A DNA stretch of 20,465 nt, from IMG/VR virus record IMGVR_UViG_3300025853_010767, positions 1 to 20,465 of that record, one strand, 5' to 3'. Source of the stretch: a virus. The notes under the pieces were generated by a model, which worked only from the letters and a program-made list of their open reading frames with translations, made no database searches and had not been told where the DNA came from. Below are positions 61-20,465 of this stretch, in pieces. Numbering within the stretch: the first letter of the stretch is position 1; the number at the start of each line of letters is the position of its first letter. Position numbers and translations under genes: made by a program.

Positions 61-1968
61 TTATCCTTCACATGCGGCGCACTCGCTGTACTTAGTTTCT
101 CCACCTGTTAGCTTCTTTGCGAGTTCTGTATAGCCTCCGACGTATTGGCCATCAAGCCAAATCTGAGGAACAGTCTTATAAGGGAAGTCCTCAACATCTT
201 CGCGCTTAACTTCTTTATATGAGATACCCTGTGAGCTAAGAAGAGCTTTGGCTCTTACGCAATAAGGGCAGTCATCTTTGGTAATAATTTTAACTCGTTG
301 TTCAGTTGCCTTAGGAGCAGACTTCTTAACAAGTAAAGAAGAGCTCTTCAGGTAGTAGAGGCTCTTGAGGCCCATCTTCCATGCGCTGAGATGGAGTTTG
401 AAGATATACTCAGGAGAGGCCTCAGGGTCTACAAAGAGATTGAGAGATTGGCCTTGGCAAACATATGGTTGGCGATCTGCGGCTTGTTTGATAAGCTCAA
501 ACTGATCGATTTCTCTTGCAGTTTTAAAAATGTCCTTCTGTTCTTGAGTAAGAAAGTTCAAGTGCTGGACAGAGCCTCTCATTTCTAGAATGCTTTCCCA
601 TACATCCTCGTTGTTCTTATCGATGCTCTCAAGCAGTTCTTGAAGGTACGGGTTCTTACGAACGAAGGTGCCCTTAGCTTGCTTGGCCACATAAAAATTG
701 GCATCTTGCGGCTCCACGCCCTGGCTAACTGCTCCAGAGATCACAGAATTAGACCGAGTCGGCGCAATAGCGATCAAATGGGTGTGTCGCATTTCGTTGC
801 CTTTACACCACTCAGGCTCACCGTACTCTTTAGCCATCTGCCTCGAGGCTTTCTCTGCGTTTTCTTTGATAAACTTATGACATTCAATATTAAGCTTACG
901 AGCCTCTTCTGATTTAAAAGCATAGCCACGACTCTGATACAAGGCATGCAAACCCATTGTACCAATGCCTAACGCCCTTGATTTCCTAGCAAAACGTACA
1001 CTTCTGCCCATTGATGGCAAACGATCGCCTTTATGGCAAAACTCCTCCACAACGGCGTCGAGTAGGTAGGTTGTGAGTTCGGGCACAGTCTTGCCTGTGT
1101 TCTTACCCTTCCAGTTCTTCCACTCATCAAACTTAGCCAGGTTCAGAGAACTCAAGACGCAAACAAAAGAATGGGACTCATCAGTATGCAAGAAGATCTC
1201 GGAGCAGAGATTAGAGGTAGAGACTTTAAGCCCTCTCTGGTTATAACACTCAGGGTTTTGACGATTGGCGTTGTCGATATAAACAATATAAGGAGACCCG
1301 CTAACCATGCGGATTTTTAGTACCTCGCCAAAGAGTTTCTGCTTTTCTACATCTCCAGCAAGCATCGAGTTAATAAACTCGTCGTCAACAGTAACTGCTA
1401 CATTGCTATCAATAAAGCTACGAGGGTCACCTTGAGAATGATCTTTTGAGCGAAGGAGTTCAGGTAGATCTGGGTGAGTGATGGGCATATAGATAGCAAA
1501 ACTACCCCGTCTTACACCACCTTGACTTACTACACTTGCTGCCAGGTCGTATTGTTGAGCCCACGGCACCACACCAGTGCTTTTTCCCCCGGCCGTGATG
1601 GGAGAACCAGCGGGACGAATGTCACCAAAATATACTCCAACTCCTCCGCCGTTTTTGGACAGTGCAGCTACCTCCTTCAAATGTGAGTAGATAGACTGCA
1701 CAGAATCAGATAGATGAACAGAATAGCAAGAGATGGGGAGACCACGAGGAGTGCCGAAATTAGCAGCAACAGGTGTTGCGAGTCCAATGTACCCATTCCA
1801 AAGAGCCTCAACTAGATCTTCTGCAATGTCATCTCTTTTTAAAATCCTAGCCGCGTTGTTTGCAACTCTTTCCCACATGCCTCGTGGGGTTTCGGCTTGC
1901 CAAAGATAGCCGCGTGACAGCGTATCAACGGCTTCCTGGCTCATCCATTCAGGAACCTGTAGCGTCAT
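61..1968 (-). CDS. nrdA: class I ribonucleotide reductase large subunit with internal glutaredoxin domain
   Basis: This is the catalytic alpha subunit that reduces ribonucleotides to deoxyribonucleotides with NrdB. Residue numbers are from the ATG at 1968 (635 aa). The longer frame from the TTG at 1974 adds only two residues and is less likely. Seen: active-site Cys81, the N253-x-C255-x-E257 motif, Cys270 (partner of Cys81), and the radical-transfer pair Tyr538-Tyr539. The RNR core is only about 545 aa and starts close to the catalytic barrel, so the N-terminal ATP-cone that gives dATP feedback inhibition in E. coli NrdA is absent. At about 558-623 there is a complete glutaredoxin fold with CPYC (567-570), the cis-Pro motif TVP (599-601) and a GGYTEL segment. 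A short tail then ends in C630-x2-C633, which corresponds to the redox-shuttle cysteines at the C-terminus of NrdA. The gene is last of the recognised genes in a minus-strand nrd group. No good Shine-Dalgarno sequence is visible. Confidence 0.95.
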   Translation of the reverse strand: MTLQVPEWMSQEAVDTLSRGYLWQAETPRGMWERVANNAARILKRDDIAEDLVEALWNGYIGLATPVAANFGTPRGLPISCYSVHLSDSVQSIYSHLKEVAALSKNGGGVGVYFGDIRPAGSPITAGGKSTGVVPWAQQYDLAASVVSQGGVRRGSFAIYMPITHPDLPELLRSKDHSQGDPRSFIDSNVAVTVDDEFINSMLAGDVEKQKLFGEVLKIRMVSGSPYIVYIDNANRQNPECYNQRGLKVSTSNLCSEIFLHTDESHSFVCVLSSLNLAKFDEWKNWKGKNTGKTVPELTTYLLDAVVEEFCHKGDRLPSMGRSVRFARKSRALGIGTMGLHALYQSRGYAFKSEEARKLNIECHKFIKENAEKASRQMAKEYGEPEWCKGNEMRHTHLIAIAPTRSNSVISGAVSQGVEPQDANFYVAKQAKGTFVRKNPYLQELLESIDKNNEDVWESILEMRGSVQHLNFLTQEQKDIFKTAREIDQFELIKQAADRQPYVCQGQSLNLFVDPEASPEYIFKLHLSAWKMGLKSLYYLKSSSLLVKKSAPKATEQRVKIITKDDCPYCVRAKALLSSQGISYKEVKREDVEDFPYKTVPQIWLDGQYVGGYTELAKKLTGGETKYSECAACEG

Positions 1969-1989
1969 ATTCAAAGTGATTCGTAGTCT

Positions 1990-3620: not shown

Positions 3621-4355
3621 TCAATTATCGTAAATAGTAATTTCGTGTTGAAGAGCGTTATATACTCCGATTGTACCGTCAGTCTTATGTCCACCTGGAT
3701 CATTGACTACACAGTTATTAGTAACAATTACTTGTTCCCAGTGACCTGCACATAAAACGTGGTTATCAACTGCGCCTCGTTTCTGAGGATTTTTCCAGAA
3801 ACCGATGTATTTGCTATATTTCTTTCCCTGATATAGCCAGCTAGTTTTAATACCTCTAAGAGTACGATTAATATCGTCTGGAGATAGAGACGATGGATCT
3901 TTGTAGTTTAACTTGCGATCATGAAATGCATGCGCAATGTGATAGTTTTTTCCGTTATCCAAGGTATAGCTAACTCCTAGAGGTCTAGAGTCTAGCCACT
4001 CTATCATGTTTTTTCTGTATTCTTCATCGAGTTGATCAAGCTCTGCAATAGTATGCTTGAAGCCCATAATACTCTTCCTGACCTTTCTTCTTTCGAGGTA
4101 ATGATCACAAAGGTTTTCGGAGTGATTTGAATGGACTAGAGTGGCATAGCCTTCGTCGCAGAGCTGACGAACTAGTTTGTAAATTTTTTCGAAGCTACAT
4201 TGGTCTTGGTATGACTTATCTCGGCAGTCATTTAGATCTCCGAGAAACACAAGATGAGCTCCGTTGTTAAGCTGAGGTGTAAGCTTCTCAATGAGCCGGG
4301 GAAGAGCATCGTCACGGGAATGGATGTCTGAAATCAGAAGGATGTTTTCCGGCAT
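3621..4355 (-). CDS. calcineurin-like metallophosphatase
   Basis: The 244-aa protein carries the metallophosphoesterase signature set in order: D10-x-H12 (SDIHS), GD40-xx-D43 (LGDLND), N77-H78 (HSNHSE in place of the usual GNHE/D), a His-rich segment H139/H142/H145 (HIAHAFHD), and GH205 (AGHWEQ). These bind the two metals and activate water for phosphate-ester hydrolysis. Size and motif layout resemble lambda-type Ser/Thr phosphatases and dinucleotide (Ap4A-type) hydrolases; the substrate cannot be told from sequence. It is one base upstream of nrdB, so the two are co-translated or at least co-transcribed, hinting at a role in nucleotide metabolism or in regulating host or phage enzymes. No Shine-Dalgarno sequence is seen; a small hairpin lies 13-29 bases before the ATG. 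Confidence 0.85.
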   Translation of the reverse strand: MPENILLISDIHSRDDALPRLIEKLTPQLNNGAHLVFLGDLNDCRDKSYQDQCSFEKIYKLVRQLCDEGYATLVHSNHSENLCDHYLERRKVRKSIMGFKHTIAELDQLDEEYRKNMIEWLDSRPLGVSYTLDNGKNYHIAHAFHDRKLNYKDPSSLSPDDINRTLRGIKTSWLYQGKKYSKYIGFWKNPQKRGAVDNHVLCAGHWEQVIVTNNCVVNDPGGHKTDGTIGVYNALQHEITIYDN

Positions 4356-4787: not shown

Positions 4788-5711
4788 CTAAAAATCCAAA
4801 TTTAAGTCCTCGTCAGAGCTTTCTTGCTGTGCAAGGAGCAGAGTCGAGCGGATACGAATACGACCGTTATCCATTTCTTCTTTGCTACGCAGAGTCAAGG
4901 TAGCAGGCTTATCTGGAGTGATCTCAGGCTTAGTTGCCAAGAGAGGACGGATGGAGCTATGAGCCCATGCGCCTGCAATGTTACCCTCTTCTGGAGTATT
5001 GTTGATCAAGATGCGATAAGTCAAACCATACGAAGTCTTACAAGGATAATATCCAATAACCTCATAAGGAGTGTTGAGTTCGAGTTCGCGAAAGTCAACT
5101 TCATCGGTGGCTTCGATACGGGTTCCACCACCACCTTTAGGGGTGACTTTTTGAAGTAGAGCAACAATATCAGCAGGCTTCTTTTTAAGAAGAGCGTTCA
5201 TTGCCTTAGGCTCAACAGGGTTTTCCCAATCGGTAAACCGAACAGCAACAGGGAGAACAGTTTGGCCGCCTTCGACGTCTACCGCCATGAAGAGCGCCGC
5301 ATCCTCGCCTCGTCCAGAGAAATTATAGGAACCAAATTCGGCCTCAATCTCTCGTCCGTTTGAGGTCTTGAAACCACCATTTACAACTTGAAGAGGAATG
5401 AATCGAGGGCCCCACTGAACATAGAGTTCGCCTTCTTTAGTGCCTTCAACGCCTTCAGCGCCAACCTTGAGAACAGGGCCGAAGAGGCGAAAATAAATGC
5501 TATCACGGGATTTGATGAGGAAAGTATTTTCATCAAGAGGAAGTTCCTCAGTGGTCAGATACTGGAAGACAGTATCGAGATCCTTACGCATTCCTTTAGG
5601 AAGGTTAGCGTTAGGAAGAGAAGTGTACTCACTAGTATACTCACGACCTGCAAGGGGAGCCAAAGCAGGGGCGTTAGTAGAAATGTCGACAGTATTAATA
5701 GTGAAAGACAT
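4788..5711 (-). CDS. 307-aa protein with SSB-like acidic C-terminal tail, probable ssDNA-binding or replication protein
   Basis: I do not recognise the family with certainty. The last residues are ESSDEDLNLDF, an acidic stretch ending in an aromatic residue, the arrangement used by bacterial SSB (DDDIPF) and similar proteins to recruit partners. Residues 206-260 (about FRELELNTPYEVIGYYPC...YGLTYRIL...GAWAHSSIRPLL) have the strand-turn pattern of an OB fold that binds nucleic acid. A GGGG linker at 193-196 divides the N-terminal part (1-190) from it. There is no zinc finger of the T4 gp32 type. It is a single-gene transcription unit with a consensus sigma70 promoter, a good ribosome site (AAAGGAA six bases before the ATG) and its own terminator, fitting an abundant, early-expressed protein. 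It lies upstream of the nrd genes. The SSB role is inference. Confidence 0.75.
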   Translation of the reverse strand: MSFTINTVDISTNAPALAPLAGREYTSEYTSLPNANLPKGMRKDLDTVFQYLTTEELPLDENTFLIKSRDSIYFRLFGPVLKVGAEGVEGTKEGELYVQWGPRFIPLQVVNGGFKTSNGREIEAEFGSYNFSGRGEDAALFMAVDVEGGQTVLPVAVRFTDWENPVEPKAMNALLKKKPADIVALLQKVTPKGGGGTRIEATDEVDFRELELNTPYEVIGYYPCKTSYGLTYRILINNTPEEGNIAGAWAHSSIRPLLATKPEITPDKPATLTLRSKEEMDNGRIRIRSTLLLAQQESSDEDLNLDF

Positions 5712-5771: not shown

Positions 5772-5800
5772 ATTATATCATAGGAGGAGACAAGTGTCAA
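5772..5800 (-). promoter_or_regulatory. consensus sigma70 promoter with extended -10
   Basis: On the minus strand TTGACA (5800-5795) and TATAAT (5777-5772) are separated by exactly 17 bp, with TG one base before the -10, so every canonical element is perfect. The predicted start is near 5765, giving a leader of about 54 bases to the SSB-like gene. The -35 begins about 20 bases after the stop of the Mo-nitro_C-like gene. Confidence 0.92.
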
Positions 5801-5819: not shown

Positions 5820-6128
5820 CTATTCTCGCTCGAGATCGAAGATGTATGTTTTGGCTTCCAACTTTATTTCATAGAGTTGCTTAGAGATTGGATTTAACGG
5901 GCAAAGCGGTGGAATATATAGTACAAGTGTATCATCGATCCAAATTTGCCTCTCAAACGGGCATTTATCTGGGATAGCGTTTATCCACTTATAGGCAAGC
6001 TTTTTACTCCAGGTCTTAGGGCGGAGAAAAGGCACAGAAAATTTTGGCAAGCTATCTGCAAAAATAGCCCACCATCTAGGAGCCCTGGCTTTCCGACCAG
6101 AGCTCGAGCGTTTAAAACTAATTTTCAT
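5820..6128 (-). CDS. small protein with Mo-nitro_C-like (PF06967-type) C-terminal domain
   Basis: The 102-aa protein has a basic N-terminus (1-20, many Lys/Arg) and a C-terminal part (about 45-98) reading IPDKCPFERQI...LVLYIPPLCPLNPISKQLYE. This matches, from memory, the conserved IP..CPFER.I....L..IPPLC.LNP...QL pattern of the cyanobacterial 'Mo-dependent nitrogenase C-terminus' family, including its two cysteines (C56, C76). Despite the name, members of this size have no nitrogenase catalytic domain, and the family's biochemical role is not established. The ATG lies four bases after the fibre stop with AGGA eight bases ahead, so it is translated from the fibre mRNA. A host-derived gene is likely. 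No membrane segment is clear. Confidence 0.72.
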   Translation of the reverse strand: MKISFKRSSSGRKARAPRWWAIFADSLPKFSVPFLRPKTWSKKLAYKWINAIPDKCPFERQIWIDDTLVLYIPPLCPLNPISKQLYEIKLEAKTYIFDLERE

Positions 6129-6132
6129 TAGC

Positions 6133-9100
6133 TTATCCTACCACAATGAAGTCAAATCCATCTTGGTCTGCATTTTCATTATTACCCACGCCTGGATCGT
6201 TAGAAGACCAAGTAAATCCGCTGGTAAGCTTACCTGTTACTTGCATAACGTGGTCTTCGCCGCCAGTAATTGTCATTATAACTGCATAATTTGTGTTAGG
6301 CATCGGAGTAGCAAAAGTAATACCTCCAGAGTTAGCACCAGACGTATTACCAGTAACGTTTCCTCCAGAAACTACACCATTAAGAGAAACAGTTCCCCAG
6401 GCTCTAATTGCGTACGCCGGGGCAGATCCTCCCTGACCACCACTTAGCTTAGAGGCTGTTACAGCACTATTGTTAATCTGAGCTGTCTCTACGGCGTTAT
6501 CTGCAATTTGTGCAGTATCAACAGCGTCGTCCGCAATGTGCTCGTTGGCAACAGCGTCATCCGCTATTTTATCTCCATTAACTGCGTCATTAGCAATTTT
6601 ACCGTTAGTCACCGCTCCGTTGCCGAGCTTTGCTTCAGTAACCGCGTTACTTGCTATTTTACCCGATGTAACAGCCTCAGAAGCCAGTTTATCAGTAATA
6701 ACGGCCCCGTCGTTAATTTTTGCTGTTTCTACAGCGCTATCTACTAACTGATCAGTACCGATTTGATAGAGTCTTAGCGCCCTTGCCGATACTAACTGAG
6801 CTGATTGTACTTCCGCAGTTCCAGACTTATCGAAGCTATTTGTAACTGAAGTAACTAATTGGCCGGTGGTAGATCCAAGTCTCAACCCTGCTAACTTAGC
6901 CTCGTTTTGGTTACCTGCATCCAATCCAAGCTGAATGGTAAACTGAAGGATGTTATCACTATCATCATTAGGATCGCCGCCGGGTGCTTCAACACTAGTC
7001 TCAGAAACAGTAAGAGGGCCAGAGGCCTGGACAACATTATCGAGCCTGAGATTAAGCTCTGTGGCAAGTTCAGCAGCAGTTACAACAACCTTATCTGCAA
7101 TACCGGTATTTGCGTTTCCAAATGCTCCACGGATCTCTGCCTGAGAAGCTAATTCAACAAATCCTGCACGGTCGGTTGTGGCGTATACGTCAGGGACAGT
7201 AGTACTTGCCTGAATAGGACCAAGGTCAGTTCTAAGTTCTGTTCCGCTATTAAAGATTAGAGTCGTGTTAGGACCAAATCTCATAGTAGAGTCATCGTTC
7301 ATATAGAGCTGACCCTTAACAATAACGTTGTTAAGAACCTGGTTTGTTACGTTGCCTAGCTCATTGTCAGCCTTAAGAGGAATGGAGAATTGCTCGCCGG
7401 ACTTGAGGTCATAGACATTAGTACCAATGTAGAAGTTACCTTCTTCATTCATACCAGAAGCATACACTCTTCCTCCGGTTTGTTCAACAATAATCTTACC
7501 TAGCTTAAAGTCTTGCTCAAGAGGCTCGCCTTGATAGATTGGGAAAGCAGTGTCGTAGTTAAGATAACCAGTCCACTCCCAAGTGTGACCAGAGGCTCTT
7601 ACAACAGAGGGACGGTGGAGGCCAATTAAGAAACCAATTTGGTTTGTAGAGGTATTTTCTCTGATTTGGATCGGGTTTACGCTAGGGCCTAAAGAAGAGC
7701 TAAATACCACATTGGGTCTGTTTCCGAACTTCTGAAGAGCAACTTTTGTTACAGAGTTAGATGGATCGGCCGATGCTTCCGGCTCGTCTAGATCAAGCTC
7801 GGGTACAAAATCGGCAGTAAAAACGTCTCTTGCGTCTGCTGAAGTTGTCATGTAAGTAATGTACTTACCAGGGAACGGATTAGTTGCGTCTGTGTATGTT
7901 ACTCCAGGGTTGCTGTAGGTGTGGTAGTTTCTTACGTCCGTAATTGTTAAAGGATCGCTGAGTAGTTCGTCTCCTCCGTTAAGCGGATAACCGGCAACAC
8001 CCTGCTGCTTTTCGAGTACGTAATAAGCCTGAGGCTTTCTTAAACCATCTTCTTTTAAGAAACCATCGAGTACAACTCGATACACTCTTTCGTCAGCAGT
8101 TCTTCTATCGACAGCTCTTCTAATTTTAAGAGGTGAACCATCAAAAATGAAATCTAAAGAGTCGAATGGGCTATCTGTAGAATCTAAAATATACCTAAAG
8201 GCATAGTCATATTTTTTCTGTAGGTATCCATCTACGTCGCCAATCTGGCCATCAGTTGTTTCTTCAGCAATTGCAGAAGTTCTGATGTTAACGTACCACT
8301 TAGAGGTTGTGCTGTCCCACCCAAAGATCTTAGAAGCGTCATCTAAGTCATCAAATTTAGTTTCCGAAGGATCTTGAATTTGGATCTCTCCGGCAAAAAG
8401 AATAGAATTGCCATTCTCATCGAAACCTGCTACGTACAGAGTTTTTCTTTCTTGGTTGCCATCTCCGCCAGATAAGTAGTAGGTTCCATCAGCTGACTTT
8501 CTTGTATAGGTAAACTGACCAAATCCAAGTAGAGACGCCGAAGGAACGTTAGTTGCAGAGAAGGGGCTTCCTATATCGGAGTTTCTGATATATACTCTAA
8601 TTACAGAAGGAGCGCTAGTTCCTACTTTATTTGCAAGAACGTAAGCTTTAGTTTGAGTATAATCGATATTAAGACCAGTGCTTACCTCACTTGTTCTTAT
8701 TGTTGCGTCTCTTCCGTTAGCTAAAGGAGAAAAGCTTAAAGGTAAAGGAGGAATAACCTGGATAATCTTTGTTCCAGAAGTTGTTGCTGTGGGTCTTCCT
8801 TCGTCTTGAGAGAACGCTTTTTCTTTAAATCCAATAGATCTTAGAGAAATGTCTCCGAAGTCAGAACAGGAGTTTGTAATAGAAAGATCCGCTCCGCTTT
8901 CCGCAATAAAGTGATCAGCGTTACCAATAACAAAGCAAGAAACTAACTGAATTGTAGAATCAGCTGATCCTCTAAATCCAAAGTGGCGATATTTAAACTC
9001 GTCAGCAGAACAAGTTCTATATTTCTTGCCACTTCCAGAGCCTTTGTTAATTGGAGGATCAGAGAAGTACTCAGTAGAAGGAGTTTCAAAGCAGTTAGGG

Positions 9101-11616
9101 TCAGTTTGTAGAGAAACCTGAGTAAAGTTTGCAGTAACCATGGACTTGAAGCCACCAACTCTGGTTCCGTCAGCCCATAGACCTTGAAGACCAAAGATAG
9201 ACCTTACTGAGCAATTAAATACATAAGGAGAAGAAGATCTCGTAGAGTTAACGTCAGGTAACTTGAAGAAGTTTACGCTTCCGCCTTCTTCTACCTTGAG
9301 TAGCGCTGGGCCTGGATATGCAGGAGGAGAGTTAGGATCAAGGTCGGGAGTTTGAGCACCGGTCTGGTTTTGCTCTACGTCGTTTCCACGGTTTTCCTTG
9401 CCTGCTACAACAGAAGCAACAATAGTTGTCTCACCAGGTACTTCTAATAGTCCGTCATTGCCCCATCCATCAATACCTGCAAAGAGAGAAGTGATTTTTG
9501 CATAGTAAGAAGTCTCGTTATTGCTTCCTCTAATCTCTGCTTGAGAAGCAAAGCCAACAGAAGTAACGGTGTTATGAGTTCTTGCGAATTGCTGGTTATC
9601 AGCAAACGTCATTAGTGATACATAGGTACCACCGGTTACTTTAAAGATATACGTTCTTTGCGCCTGGGCAGTATTTTGTCCTGGAGTTAATGCAGGAACA
9701 TACATCGGGCGAATTCTAACTTTTCTTAGGTCAACGCCATTGATAGAAATACCTCTGGGGACAATTAGACCACCGGTCGTAGGGTTGAAGTCGGAAGTTC
9801 TGTTATAAAAAATTTCGTCTCCGATATTAAAGTTTCCTTTTACATACTGAAGATATACCTTCCATCTAGTAGCAGAAACGGAATTTTTTTCAATCTTTTT
9901 AATAGTACCTACCGAACCAGTAGAAGTATATAATACTCTTCCTAGGTTTAGAACAACGGGAGGCTGTGAATTTGCGCTACCTACATCTATAATGATGAAA
10001 GGATTTTCTGTACTATAAGCAGTTAGTGTAGAGTATCCAGTAGTAACCTGCTTAATATATCTATCAGCGGCAGAGATTCCTGTAATAGCATTTACTCCAG
10101 GAGAGTTGTCTACATAGTAATCACCAGGGGCAAGCTCAATTACTGTTGTATCGTACGCGTCTGTAGCGCCACCTCTTCTACTGGCTCTTGCTGCTTCAAG
10201 AAGTGCTCTTTCAAGAGTTCTAAATGGCCTATCGTTATCGGTTCCGTTATTATTTAATTCGTCAGTTCCTACAGAAGGATCTACATAGATGATATTTCTG
10301 ATTGCAGTGGAAGAGTCAGCAATTGTTCTTTTATTACATCTATTTGCGCCAAATACTTTAATTAGCCCACCTTCTCCGTTAGAGTAGATAGCTGTTGCTT
10401 CTCTAATTTCTTTATAGCACTTCTGAGAAGATACTTCGTAACGATATACTCCTTCAGAAGGGTTGGGGTACACTGCAGGAATTGGCTGGCCGTCTGGGCA
10501 TTCTCCAGCGGTTCTTGTACCAATAAACTCTTTTCCTCCGCAGCTAATAAATGTTCCTAGCTTAGGATTACATTCAGAACCAGGAGTTTCTTCAAATTTC
10601 CATTCAGCAGTAGATGCGTTATAGAATAGCTCTAAGTGAGCATCGCGAATATTTACGATCCAGTCGTCTACAGACCCATTAATTTTAGTATCGGTTCCAG
10701 GTCTTAGGACAATGGGGAATCTGTCAAAAGATCCTTCTAAGTCAACAATTGCAACTCTATCGTTATCAGATGCTTTATTAGCTCCTGATGCTCCAGGTAG
10801 GCTGATAACAATAGATCCGTTTGTGGTATCTGCAATTGCTCTGTCCCACGAGCTAATAGTAGTAGATGTAGCTAATACGTCGGTATTTTTTAAGATACCT
10901 GTTCCGTAGTTATTTAATGCACCAACGAATAGGTTAGGACGGAGATCAATCACTCCAGTTCCCATTACATCACCATCGGAATCTGTGTTAAATTCTCCGT
11001 CGGTAAAATTAATTTCCGCAAGAGGAACGTATGGGTTAGAAGTAGGATCAGGGAGAGTAGAAGCAATCGCAAGAACACCGCCGTCTGTTAAAGAATCGTC
11101 TTCTTTTACATAAATATAATTTGTACCTGTTGGATTAGATACGCCACTCTGACCTGTAGAAGCAGAGATTATTCCGACAATTTGCCTGTTCCAAGAGAAC
11201 AAAGTTCCATTAGAAAGAACAATTTTTCCGGCTTCTACAATTACGCCCCTTGGAGCAGCTGCAGTACCCTCAACGGTGCTAATTGCATTATTTGCGCCAA
11301 TAGAAATCCTAACGGTTTTAGGCTTGGTAAATGTTGCGTCGGTGATGGTCCACCCGGTACCGATAGTGCTGTATCCAAGAACTACACCATCATGGGCCAG
11401 TCTGCCGATTGCTGTTTCTTTTTCGTTTCTAGGATTAGAAATTTCGTAGTCCTTGAGTCCGTCTCTTTCTGTAATATCCCAGCTGTTTTCGTCGGTAGAA
11501 GACAGTGTATAGAAATCTGCCCTAGCTCCGCCAGAGAAGCTAGTACCTTTTTGTACCTCATTAAGGTACTCCTTAGTTACAATCGTTCCGTTTTGGAATG
11601 TAATTTTGTCAAGCAT
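6133..11616 (-). CDS. giant tail fibre / virion adhesin, 1827 aa
   Basis: This very long structural protein begins MLDKITFQNGTIVTKEYLNE. Around 240-345 lies a compact beta-rich module (TTISSWDRA...GSIVISLPG...INGSVDDWIVN...LELFY) of a type repeated in phage fibres. Cysteines sit at 349, 359, 373 and 400. At about 440-520 the IYVDPSVGTD...RPFRTLERAL pattern marks the start of a right-handed beta-helix (pectate-lyase-like). The middle is beta-rich. At about 1478-1515 a phage tail-fibre repeat appears (TTDRAGFVELASQAEIRG). Residues 1627-1726 are ten exact 10-residue repeats of [DNSGE]AV...KIA type, and 1728-1827 form a Gly/Thr-rich tip domain ending GFDFIVVG. It probably contacts the host surface. 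It follows a small structural gene and is followed at four bases by the Mo-nitro_C-like gene. No Shine-Dalgarno sequence is seen. Confidence 0.87.
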   Translation of the reverse strand: MLDKITFQNGTIVTKEYLNEVQKGTSFSGGARADFYTLSSTDENSWDITERDGLKDYEISNPRNEKETAIGRLAHDGVVLGYSTIGTGWTITDATFTKPKTVRISIGANNAISTVEGTAAAPRGVIVEAGKIVLSNGTLFSWNRQIVGIISASTGQSGVSNPTGTNYIYVKEDDSLTDGGVLAIASTLPDPTSNPYVPLAEINFTDGEFNTDSDGDVMGTGVIDLRPNLFVGALNNYGTGILKNTDVLATSTTISSWDRAIADTTNGSIVISLPGASGANKASDNDRVAIVDLEGSFDRFPIVLRPGTDTKINGSVDDWIVNIRDAHLELFYNASTAEWKFEETPGSECNPKLGTFISCGGKEFIGTRTAGECPDGQPIPAVYPNPSEGVYRYEVSSQKCYKEIREATAIYSNGEGGLIKVFGANRCNKRTIADSSTAIRNIIYVDPSVGTDELNNNGTDNDRPFRTLERALLEAARASRRGGATDAYDTTVIELAPGDYYVDNSPGVNAITGISAADRYIKQVTTGYSTLTAYSTENPFIIIDVGSANSQPPVVLNLGRVLYTSTGSVGTIKKIEKNSVSATRWKVYLQYVKGNFNIGDEIFYNRTSDFNPTTGGLIVPRGISINGVDLRKVRIRPMYVPALTPGQNTAQAQRTYIFKVTGGTYVSLMTFADNQQFARTHNTVTSVGFASQAEIRGSNNETSYYAKITSLFAGIDGWGNDGLLEVPGETTIVASVVAGKENRGNDVEQNQTGAQTPDLDPNSPPAYPGPALLKVEEGGSVNFFKLPDVNSTRSSSPYVFNCSVRSIFGLQGLWADGTRVGGFKSMVTANFTQVSLQTDPNCFETPSTEYFSDPPINKGSGSGKKYRTCSADEFKYRHFGFRGSADSTIQLVSCFVIGNADHFIAESGADLSITNSCSDFGDISLRSIGFKEKAFSQDEGRPTATTSGTKIIQVIPPLPLSFSPLANGRDATIRTSEVSTGLNIDYTQTKAYVLANKVGTSAPSVIRVYIRNSDIGSPFSATNVPSASLLGFGQFTYTRKSADGTYYLSGGDGNQERKTLYVAGFDENGNSILFAGEIQIQDPSETKFDDLDDASKIFGWDSTTSKWYVNIRTSAIAEETTDGQIGDVDGYLQKKYDYAFRYILDSTDSPFDSLDFIFDGSPLKIRRAVDRRTADERVYRVVLDGFLKEDGLRKPQAYYVLEKQQGVAGYPLNGGDELLSDPLTITDVRNYHTYSNPGVTYTDATNPFPGKYITYMTTSADARDVFTADFVPELDLDEPEASADPSNSVTKVALQKFGNRPNVVFSSSLGPSVNPIQIRENTSTNQIGFLIGLHRPSVVRASGHTWEWTGYLNYDTAFPIYQGEPLEQDFKLGKIIVEQTGGRVYASGMNEEGNFYIGTNVYDLKSGEQFSIPLKADNELGNVTNQVLNNVIVKGQLYMNDDSTMRFGPNTTLIFNSGTELRTDLGPIQASTTVPDVYATTDRAGFVELASQAEIRGAFGNANTGIADKVVVTAAELATELNLRLDNVVQASGPLTVSETSVEAPGGDPNDDSDNILQFTIQLGLDAGNQNEAKLAGLRLGSTTGQLVTSVTNSFDKSGTAEVQSAQLVSARALRLYQIGTDQLVDSAVETAKINDGAVITDKLASEAVTSGKIASNAVTEAKLGNGAVTNGKIANDAVNGDKIADDAVANEHIADDAVDTAQIADNAVETAQINNSAVTASKLSGGQGGSAPAYAIRAWGTVSLNGVVSGGNVTGNTSGANSGGITFATPMPNTNYAVIMTITGGEDHVMQVTGKLTSGFTWSSNDPGVGNNENADQDGFDFIVVG
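6439..6738 (-). repeat. ten 30-bp coding repeats in the fibre gene
   Basis: Ten consecutive 10-residue units (SAVETAKIND, GAVITDKLAS, EAVTSGKIAS and so on to SAVTASKLSG) are encoded without any length variation. The consensus is xAVxxxKIAx, with A-V fixed in every unit. The bases are diverged, so this is an old protein-level repeat and not a recent expansion. It most likely forms a trimeric stalk before the receptor-binding tip. Confidence 0.85.
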
Positions 11617-11634: not shown

Positions 11635-12189
11635 TTATGTAGTGCTGTCGTTAATCCAGAGTAACCGACCCATCCATTCTGAACTAGGACCAAAAGAGCT
11701 TAATTCAACTAACATTTTTCTTCCAGAAGCTTTATAAGCATCTATAGGGTTTTCAGCGCTTTCGTCTATGGCTATACCACCATATCCCCAAGTAATTCCG
11801 CCGGAGAAGATAAACCAAGTGTTCTTTTCTCCCCAGTTTACTGGGTAGTCAAAATAGGTTGTTACATTGCTCACGGGATCTGTTGAGAAGGTAAGCAAAA
11901 TTCTCATTTCTCTATAAAACCCTTCTGGTACCGAAAGAGGATTTGTATTAGGAACCGGAAGGTTGTCCGATTGAGCTAGATCTACAGACAAATAGTTTGA
12001 AGATCTTAAAGAGCCCATCGGCTTATTCTTTACTGCTCCGCCTAGTTCTATTGGAGAACCTACAGAGTCTCCTAGCCAAACTCTTCCATCAGCGTTATTG
12101 CCAAAGAGTTCCCCCTCACCTAAGTCCCCAATGAAAGGTTCTTCACCAACGACGTTTGACGTTAAAATTTGAATAGATGCTTGACTCAT
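11635..12189 (-). CDS. 184-aa virion structural (fibre-associated) protein
   Basis: Residues 14-50 (VGEEPFIGDLGEGELFGNNADGRVWLGD in outline) follow the P..L..GEL..N.ADG..(W/F/Y)(L/V)GD pattern found at the N-terminus of many phage fibre and tropism proteins. There it makes an attachment domain to the baseplate or to another fibre. The rest is beta-rich, with aromatic and Gly-rich segments (FYREMRILLTF, WFIFSGGITWGYGG). There is no signal peptide or cysteine. It is the first gene of the minus-strand fibre operon and ends 18 bases before the giant fibre, so it may be its adaptor or a short companion fibre. A CTAAATA late-promoter-like motif lies 13 bases before the ATG. Exact role unknown. Confidence 0.72.
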   Translation of the reverse strand: MSQASIQILTSNVVGEEPFIGDLGEGELFGNNADGRVWLGDSVGSPIELGGAVKNKPMGSLRSSNYLSVDLAQSDNLPVPNTNPLSVPEGFYREMRILLTFSTDPVSNVTTYFDYPVNWGEKNTWFIFSGGITWGYGGIAIDESAENPIDAYKASGRKMLVELSSFGPSSEWMGRLLWINDSTT

Positions 12190-12202
12190 TTACAAGAAAT
12201 TG

Positions 12203-12209
12203 TATTTAG
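12203..12209 (-). promoter_or_regulatory. possible phage late promoter (CTAAATA)
   Basis: CTAAATA on the minus strand ends 13 bases before the ATG of the 184-aa gene. It resembles the late -10 element of T4-type phages (TATAAATA) and the variant reported for cyanomyoviruses. A structural operon is where such an element is expected. A single seven-base match in AT-rich DNA is weak evidence. Confidence 0.4.
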
Positions 12210-12219
12210 TCTATCTTTC

Positions 12220-12246
12220 CTTTAAACTGATTTCCACGGTTTAAAG
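12220..12246. repeat. 8-bp inverted repeat in the divergent intergenic region
   Basis: CTTTAAAC and GTTTAAAG are perfect inverted copies separated by 11 bases, midway between the divergently transcribed fibre and baseplate operons (12190-12273). They could be an operator for a dimeric regulator or an RNA hairpin. No T-run follows on either strand, so it is not a terminator. Confidence 0.5.
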
Positions 12247-12273
12247 CTGTATTAGAATAATAACAATAAAGAT

Positions 12274-19824: not shown

Positions 19825-20465
19825 ATGAACTACAGAAGAACATACTTTGCCTTAATCAGAAAAGCACTGAAGCGAAACAAGTGTGCCAAAGGCGTTTATT
19901 GCGAAGATCACCATATCATACCTAAAAGTTTTGTAAAAAATAATTGGACAGTTACATTGACTCTAAGAGAGCATTTTATATGTCACAAGTTGATATATAA
20001 GTATTGCTTAAAAAGATATGGCCCAAGCGGATCTAAAACCAATAAGGCTTTATTGGCATTCTTTTTTATGTCTAATAGGATGGATATAAAAAGATCTAAA
20101 GAGTACGAGCAAGCAAGATCTGCATTTGTAGATTATTTACGTTCAATACAACGACCAGAGTACGTTTTTTATCACAAAAAGTACGGCAAGTTTGTCGGTA
20201 CAATGCGAGAGTTTATCGAAAAATACCCCAATTTAAAAACGAATAATCTTTCGAGTGTGTGGAATGGCTATAAGCATCATTATAGAGGTTGGTGTATAAG
20301 CGAGGAAATGATGGATAAAGTAGAGAAGGGACTACATACTAAGAAAAAAGTTTATAAATTTGTTCATAACCAACACGGAATATTTGAAGGTAGTCTTTTT
20401 CAAATGAAAGATAAGTTTTCTCATATGAAACTAAACATATCGACATTAGCGGCAGTCTATCGAAA
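19825..20465 (+). CDS. HNH homing endonuclease, 3' end beyond the window
   Basis: The frame opens at ATG 19825 and stays open for 213 codons to the window edge. Seen: YCEDHHIIPKSF (25-36) with the paired His29-His30, followed by LTLREHFICHKL (45-56) with His54. This is the HHIIP...LT.REHF..H pattern of free-standing phage HNH endonucleases. The second half has two copies of a roughly 32-residue unit (about 117-147 and 181-212) with H..xG.F.G....(EQ)......(FY)...K.......V(WY). These probably read the target DNA, as NUMOD-type repeats do. It stands 50 bases after the baseplate operon, and its AT content is high. No good ribosome site is visible. It is not the same subtype as the HNH gene between nrdB and nrdA. 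Confidence 0.85.
   Translation, partial: MNYRRTYFALIRKALKRNKCAKGVYCEDHHIIPKSFVKNNWTVTLTLREHFICHKLIYKYCLKRYGPSGSKTNKALLAFFFMSNRMDIKRSKEYEQARSAFVDYLRSIQRPEYVFYHKKYGKFVGTMREFIEKYPNLKTNNLSSVWNGYKHHYRGWCISEEMMDKVEKGLHTKKKVYKFVHNQHGIFEGSLFQMKDKFSHMKLNISTLAAVYR

Follow-up and report, generated by a model that had tools for sequence, protein, structure and literature searches.

In PMC2821919, all1439 is listed with nifE on one side and nifK on the other, under the name of a Mo-dependent nitrogenase family protein. The literature searched gave no description of a molecular function for PF06967 (Mo-nitro_C). Among phages, the closest described protein is that of S-TIM5 (H6WFZ1 / AEZ65716), which the UniProt tables (BFVD) name Mo-dependent nitrogenase C-terminal domain-containing protein and GenBank a hypothetical protein, and for which no functional work was found in the literature searched. 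Many of its neighbours in the S-TIM5 record, even a 60-aa protein, are marked as virion structural, while this protein remains hypothetical there.

We analyzed a viral DNA stretch of 20,465 nucleotides (the window; IMG/VR record IMGVR_UViG_3300025853_010767), which carries an orthologue of this S-TIM5 protein with 92% identity and a shared position. Since the S-TIM5 orthologue was already named after the family, the family assignment is not new. What we add to the known annotation is a fuller picture: the gene is a single-domain copy of a module from cyanobacteria, core and probably old, located at the edge of a receptor-binding cassette. The observation made in the initial annotation was correct, and about half of its interpretation held. 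The relevant features are as follows:

4788 to 5711, minus strand: 307-aa SSB-like protein, phrog_25892 (unknown function), with an acidic C-terminal tail; constant companion of the PF06967 gene
5772 to 5800, minus strand: promoter match of the sigma70 type, perfect (TTGACA-17-TATAAT) and with a TG preceding the -10 element, in the gap that separates the PF06967 and SSB-like genes
5820 to 6128, minus strand: PF06967 (Mo-nitro_C) protein of 102 aa, Pfam profile match, ATG start
6133 to about 6930: hypervariable receptor-binding region, bounded by the PF06967 gene; in loci L018-L077 it also includes the genes between the fibre and the PF06967 gene
6133 to 11616, minus strand: tail fibre of 1827 aa, PHROGs phrog_529 (E 1.8e-236), with counterparts annotated as "tail fiber" in the S-TIM5, S-TIM54, and S-TIM61 records
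11635 to 12189, minus strand: 184-aa protein whose gene opens the same-strand block; conserved across the clade wherever the locus extends far enough

The 102-aa product matched PF06967 over residues 42-98 with an E value of 1.4e-13 and 51 bits against a gathering cutoff of 27, which bore out the membership proposed in the initial annotation, and a search at the DNA level also hit the family. The match spans positions 17-73 of the 83-position profile, which is most of it, and the last ten positions (the tail) were unmatched. The protein consists of a basic phage-specific N-terminus, a helix, a CPFE-hairpin-PPLCxLNP core in which both KCPFER and IPPLCPLNP are present, and a long C-terminal helix, and the cyanobacterial CGED..YC tail is missing. 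No PHROG model up to E 0.1, no NCBIfam model up to E 1, and no PADLOC model matched the product. Of 21 pairs, 9 allowed dN/dS of the gene to be calculated and gave 0.05-0.15, the remaining 12 having saturated synonymous sites. Judged from these sequences, the ORF is a real gene under purifying selection.

An AlphaFold2 model built on an alignment of 42 rows reached a pLDDT of 90.3 and a pTM of 0.67, with helices at residues 18-26 and 42-51, a hairpin at 60-72, and a helix at 82-101. No PDB chain was related by sequence profile, Foldseek against the PDB gave no match at E <= 0.001, and none of 127 VIA-align comparisons with the PDB reached Z >= 2. The sole BFVD match at E <= 0.001 was the protein's own orthologue. 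Thus, no sequence or fold kinship with known fibre assembly proteins was found in PHROG (up to E 0.1), the PDB, or BFVD.

By tblastn, the protein matched 5 of 50,697 phage records, two of which represent one S-TIM5 genome, and all of which are S-TIM5-type Synechococcus cyanophages with 86-95% identity. The same five records, and no other phage, were recovered with a divergent phage member as the query and, at E 2e-6 to 5e-6, with a cyanobacterial member. Gene order was the same as in the window in the three records that were opened (S-TIM5, S-TIM54, and S-TIM61), whose taxonomy line reads Aurunvirus. The window therefore belongs to an Aurunvirus-like cyanophage of the S-TIM5 group with Synechococcus hosts. 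The cyanobacterial host suggested earlier was right, and the gene, once regarded as the best host clue in the window, is superseded in this respect by the nearly identical S-TIM5-type phages, whose hosts are Synechococcus WH 8102 and CC9605.

An alignment-based scan of viral contigs yielded 62 loci with the gene. Because these loci had been chosen by the PF06967 gene itself, a second scan was made through the 307-aa neighbour, in which 63 of 63 viral loci carried the PF06967 gene (largest E 5.4e-37) with the KCPFE and P[PA]LC motifs intact. Three of them (L175, L178, and L183) were absent from the first list; because the two sets share most of their contigs, neither count is independent of the other. 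S-CBWM1 and A-HIS1, which encode distant relatives of the 307-aa protein, have no PF06967 gene within 8 kb. These results indicate that PF06967 is a core gene of the Aurunvirus-like cyanophage group, a new observation.

The layout was compared in 66 loci (62 viral contigs, three annotated phages, and the window). As far as each locus reaches, the order is the 184-aa gene, the fibre, variable genes, PF06967, the SSB-like gene, nrdB, HNH, and nrdA. The window neighbours of the PF06967 gene are tail genes, the SSB-like gene, and nrdA/nrdB. In the window the gene starts 5 nt after the fibre stop codon, and thus straight behind the fibre as the initial annotation had it; in 61 of the 66 loci the distance between its start and the stop codon before it falls between -40 and +20 nt. 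A fibre homologue adjoins it (<=60 nt) in 23 of the 63 loci with a fibre match; the remaining ones have 73 nt to 4.3 kb between the two, mostly occupied by other ORFs.

Several other genes of the window were also inspected. The large subunit of ribonucleotide reductase (61-1974, minus strand) has a C-terminal glutaredoxin domain at residues 561-612 (E 1.5e-10). The gene at 3621-4355 (minus strand) has a counterpart annotated as PhoS in S-TIM5, and its best library match was part of a bacterial polynucleotide kinase-phosphatase (E 5.3e-11, far under the model's cutoff). The ORF at 19825-20463 (plus strand) is homing-endonuclease-like (phrog_655) and extends past the window end.

PF06967 matches occurred in 110 of 291 sampled genomes of the cyanobacterial phylum, with up to 6 copies per genome, in agreement with the earlier view of a cyanobacteria-centred family. 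Thirty of the 36 genomes with the alpha-carboxysome marker CsoS2, which we take to mark marine picocyanobacteria and their kin, had no match, and the six others comprised four clear long genes and two marginal ones. The long genes of CsoS2 genomes look TerB-fused by eye. Pfam TerB was above its cutoff in all four long cyanobacterial frames tested and absent from one short form; L114, L116, L118, L119, L127, and L128 were judged from their sequences to be TerB-fused, and two TerB fusions weakly matched PDC-S48 in PADLOC. In cyanobacteria, the PF06967 domain thus also ends TerB-domain proteins, which is new here and makes the nitrogenase name misleading. The cyanobacterial gene neighbourhoods showed no single common context. 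Four loci (L084, L126, L132, and L133) have in common a neighbouring ORF that appears NifE-like by eye, which agrees with the placing of all1439 in PMC2821919. The family is thus not a nitrogenase family as such.

In a tree of 66 columns, from which L015 and L085 were left out as short frames, 41 phage rows were split from 53 cyanobacterial rows by a branch with support of 99/93 and a long stem. The phage copies form one clade, and repeated recent capture is not supported, which is also new. Nesting of phage copies inside a host lineage, as would mark a recent host acquisition, was not seen in this 66-column tree. The single clade on a long stem therefore points to an old single transfer rather than a recent host gene, and its direction would be from a cyanobacterium to the phage ancestor, once and long ago. 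The proposal that the gene is host-derived was only partly right: the phage clade is far from all 53 cyanobacterial copies and most CsoS2 genomes gave no match, so no recent donor can be named; nor did the tree, with so few columns, yield the donor lineage for which the initial annotation had suggested it.

We propose the following explanation. The ancestor of Aurunvirus-like cyanophages would have taken a stand-alone PF06967 domain from a cyanobacterium and then retained it as a core gene. The gene is the last cistron of the fibre/adhesin block, with start-stop coupling to whichever gene stands in front of it, and its protein would be made late with the tail genes and would not be a bulk part of the virion. 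In the cell it may serve as a small adaptor or binding protein by means of its CPFE-hairpin-PPLCxLNP surface, an action that may parallel that of the PF06967 domain behind TerB in cyanobacteria. Most likely, the protein is a small helper that is produced along with the tail genes and stays outside the virion. Its most likely role would be in late phage development (tail/fibre assembly), as a general helper irrespective of the adhesin type. The identity and history of the gene are highly probable, the role as a general late helper is doubtful, and the whole explanation is put forward tentatively.

Late expression had been suggested earlier and is plausible from the position of the gene. The late-promoter motif CTAAATA is at chance level, with eight copies in the window against 5.96 expected; ahead of the 184-aa gene, it was seen in the window and its near-identical relatives but nowhere else (3 of the 10 loci examined). 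Only the position, therefore, makes late expression of the fibre block likely. The spacer in front of the 184-aa gene (12190-12273, minus strand) contains a near-palindrome, TTTAAACCG..CAGTTTAAA, which is kept in close relatives.

Alternatively, the protein may be directed at the host. As a bare domain without the cyanobacterial C-terminal tail, it would compete with or replace the cyanobacterial PF06967 proteins, whether short forms or TerB fusions, and change host stress or nitrogen physiology late in infection. The multiple copies and TerB fusions of this cyanobacterial family agree with such a function, as does the missing structural mark on the S-TIM5 orthologue, but 30 of the 36 CsoS2 genomes gave no match and only 4 of the 6 matching ones carry a clear long gene. 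Moreover, auxiliary metabolic genes are retained patchily, unlike this core gene of single origin. We therefore regard a host-directed function as possible but somewhat improbable.

The PF06967 protein might also work together with the SSB-like protein in DNA metabolism. The SSB-like gene lies <=160 nt after the PF06967 gene in 59 of 61 loci, the two co-vary, and the basic N-terminus of the PF06967 protein would suit this function. The model of the 307-aa neighbour (pLDDT 85) weakly resembles OB-fold RPA/SSB proteins; its top Foldseek rows include RPA and SSB OB folds (probability 0.91 and 0.82), and since no row reached E <= 0.001, the label "SSB-like" is provisional. However, the strong sigma70-type promoter match separates the two genes in the S-TIM5 group, where it would serve the SSB-like gene. 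This match was perfect (12/12) in 12 of 48 distinct gaps and at least 10/12 in 17 of them, compared with 1.85 expected from shuffles (two further loci with large gaps were skipped), and most of the distant relatives had no clear match. Together with S-CBWM1 and A-HIS1, whose relatives of the SSB-like protein come without a PF06967 gene nearby, this makes the partnership rather unlikely.

The fibre is common to most relatives up to about residue 1,560-1,670 of 1,827, and its C-terminal end is hypervariable; the match runs to the end in the S-TIM5-like copies, to residue 1727 in L057, and only to residue 427 in L076. The receptor-binding region, namely the fibre C-terminus with the extra adhesin genes, fell into 10 similarity groups in the 55 loci with an adhesin region in which the PF06967 gene is present and the SSB-like protein exceeds 250 aa. 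In these loci, PF06967 identity correlated best with that of the SSB-like protein (r 0.638), followed by the fibre N-terminal part (0.367) and the adhesins (0.308). The partial correlations were 0.61 for the SSB-like protein given the fibre N-part and 0.29 for the fibre N-part given the SSB-like protein. This tracking speaks against a function in the fibre, but plain linkage and recombination within the PF06967 gene could produce the same pattern. For the adhesins given the SSB-like protein the partial r was 0.21 (permutation p 0.0005), so some co-variation between PF06967 and the adhesins remains.

PF06967 identity reached 81-88% between loci with an adhesin similarity of 0. DNA identity was about 0.3-0.5 in the adhesin and, inside the PF06967 gene or just past it, rose to 0.9-1.0 in two of the three pairs examined and to about 0.8 in the third. 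The gene therefore forms the right-hand limit of the exchanged stretch. The preceding adhesin genes change while the PF06967 gene stays in place ahead of the SSB-like gene, a new observation which indicates that it is not tied to the fibre of the window. Moreover, 453 of 458 phage records with a relative of part of the fibre show no PF06967 gene by tblastn, most of the fibre matches spanning under a third of the queried fibre stretch.

A chaperone or tip subunit specific to the fibre or adhesin C-terminus, the fibre chaperone of the initial annotation, would suit the position, comparable to that of T4 gp38 and Tfa-like proteins after the fibre, the start-stop coupling, and the residual co-variation, but the conservation across unrelated adhesins, the many fibre-bearing records without the gene, the direct contact with a fibre homologue in only 23 of 63 loci, with other genes intervening in most of the rest, and the lack of any PHROG family match up to E 0.1 make it quite unlikely.

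The preferred reading remains a late helper that does not depend on the adhesin. In its broadest form, a cyanobacterial interaction domain, found behind TerB, would have undergone a single domestication into an essential late factor of a whole cyanophage lineage, independent of the adhesin; this is conceivable but less than probable. If true, the phage gene could be the simplest handle on the action of PF06967 in cyanobacteria. A phage lineage with a bare copy in every sampled locus, at a constant place, offers a compact system for tests. As the right-hand boundary of the hypervariable receptor-binding region, the gene is also useful for host-range studies.

Compared with the described systems, all1439-type genes sit beside nif genes, whereas no nif gene was found among the window genes searched, and thus the phage gene does not lie beside nifHDK/EN as a nitrogenase component would. 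Its nitrogenase link is a matter of name only. Unlike the cyanobacterial members, the phage form has neither the CGED..YC tail nor TerB, carries a basic N-terminus, and forms a separate long branch, while the (K/Q)CPFER...IPP(L/M)C.(L/I)NP core is common to it and to both the short and the TerB-fused cyanobacterial proteins.
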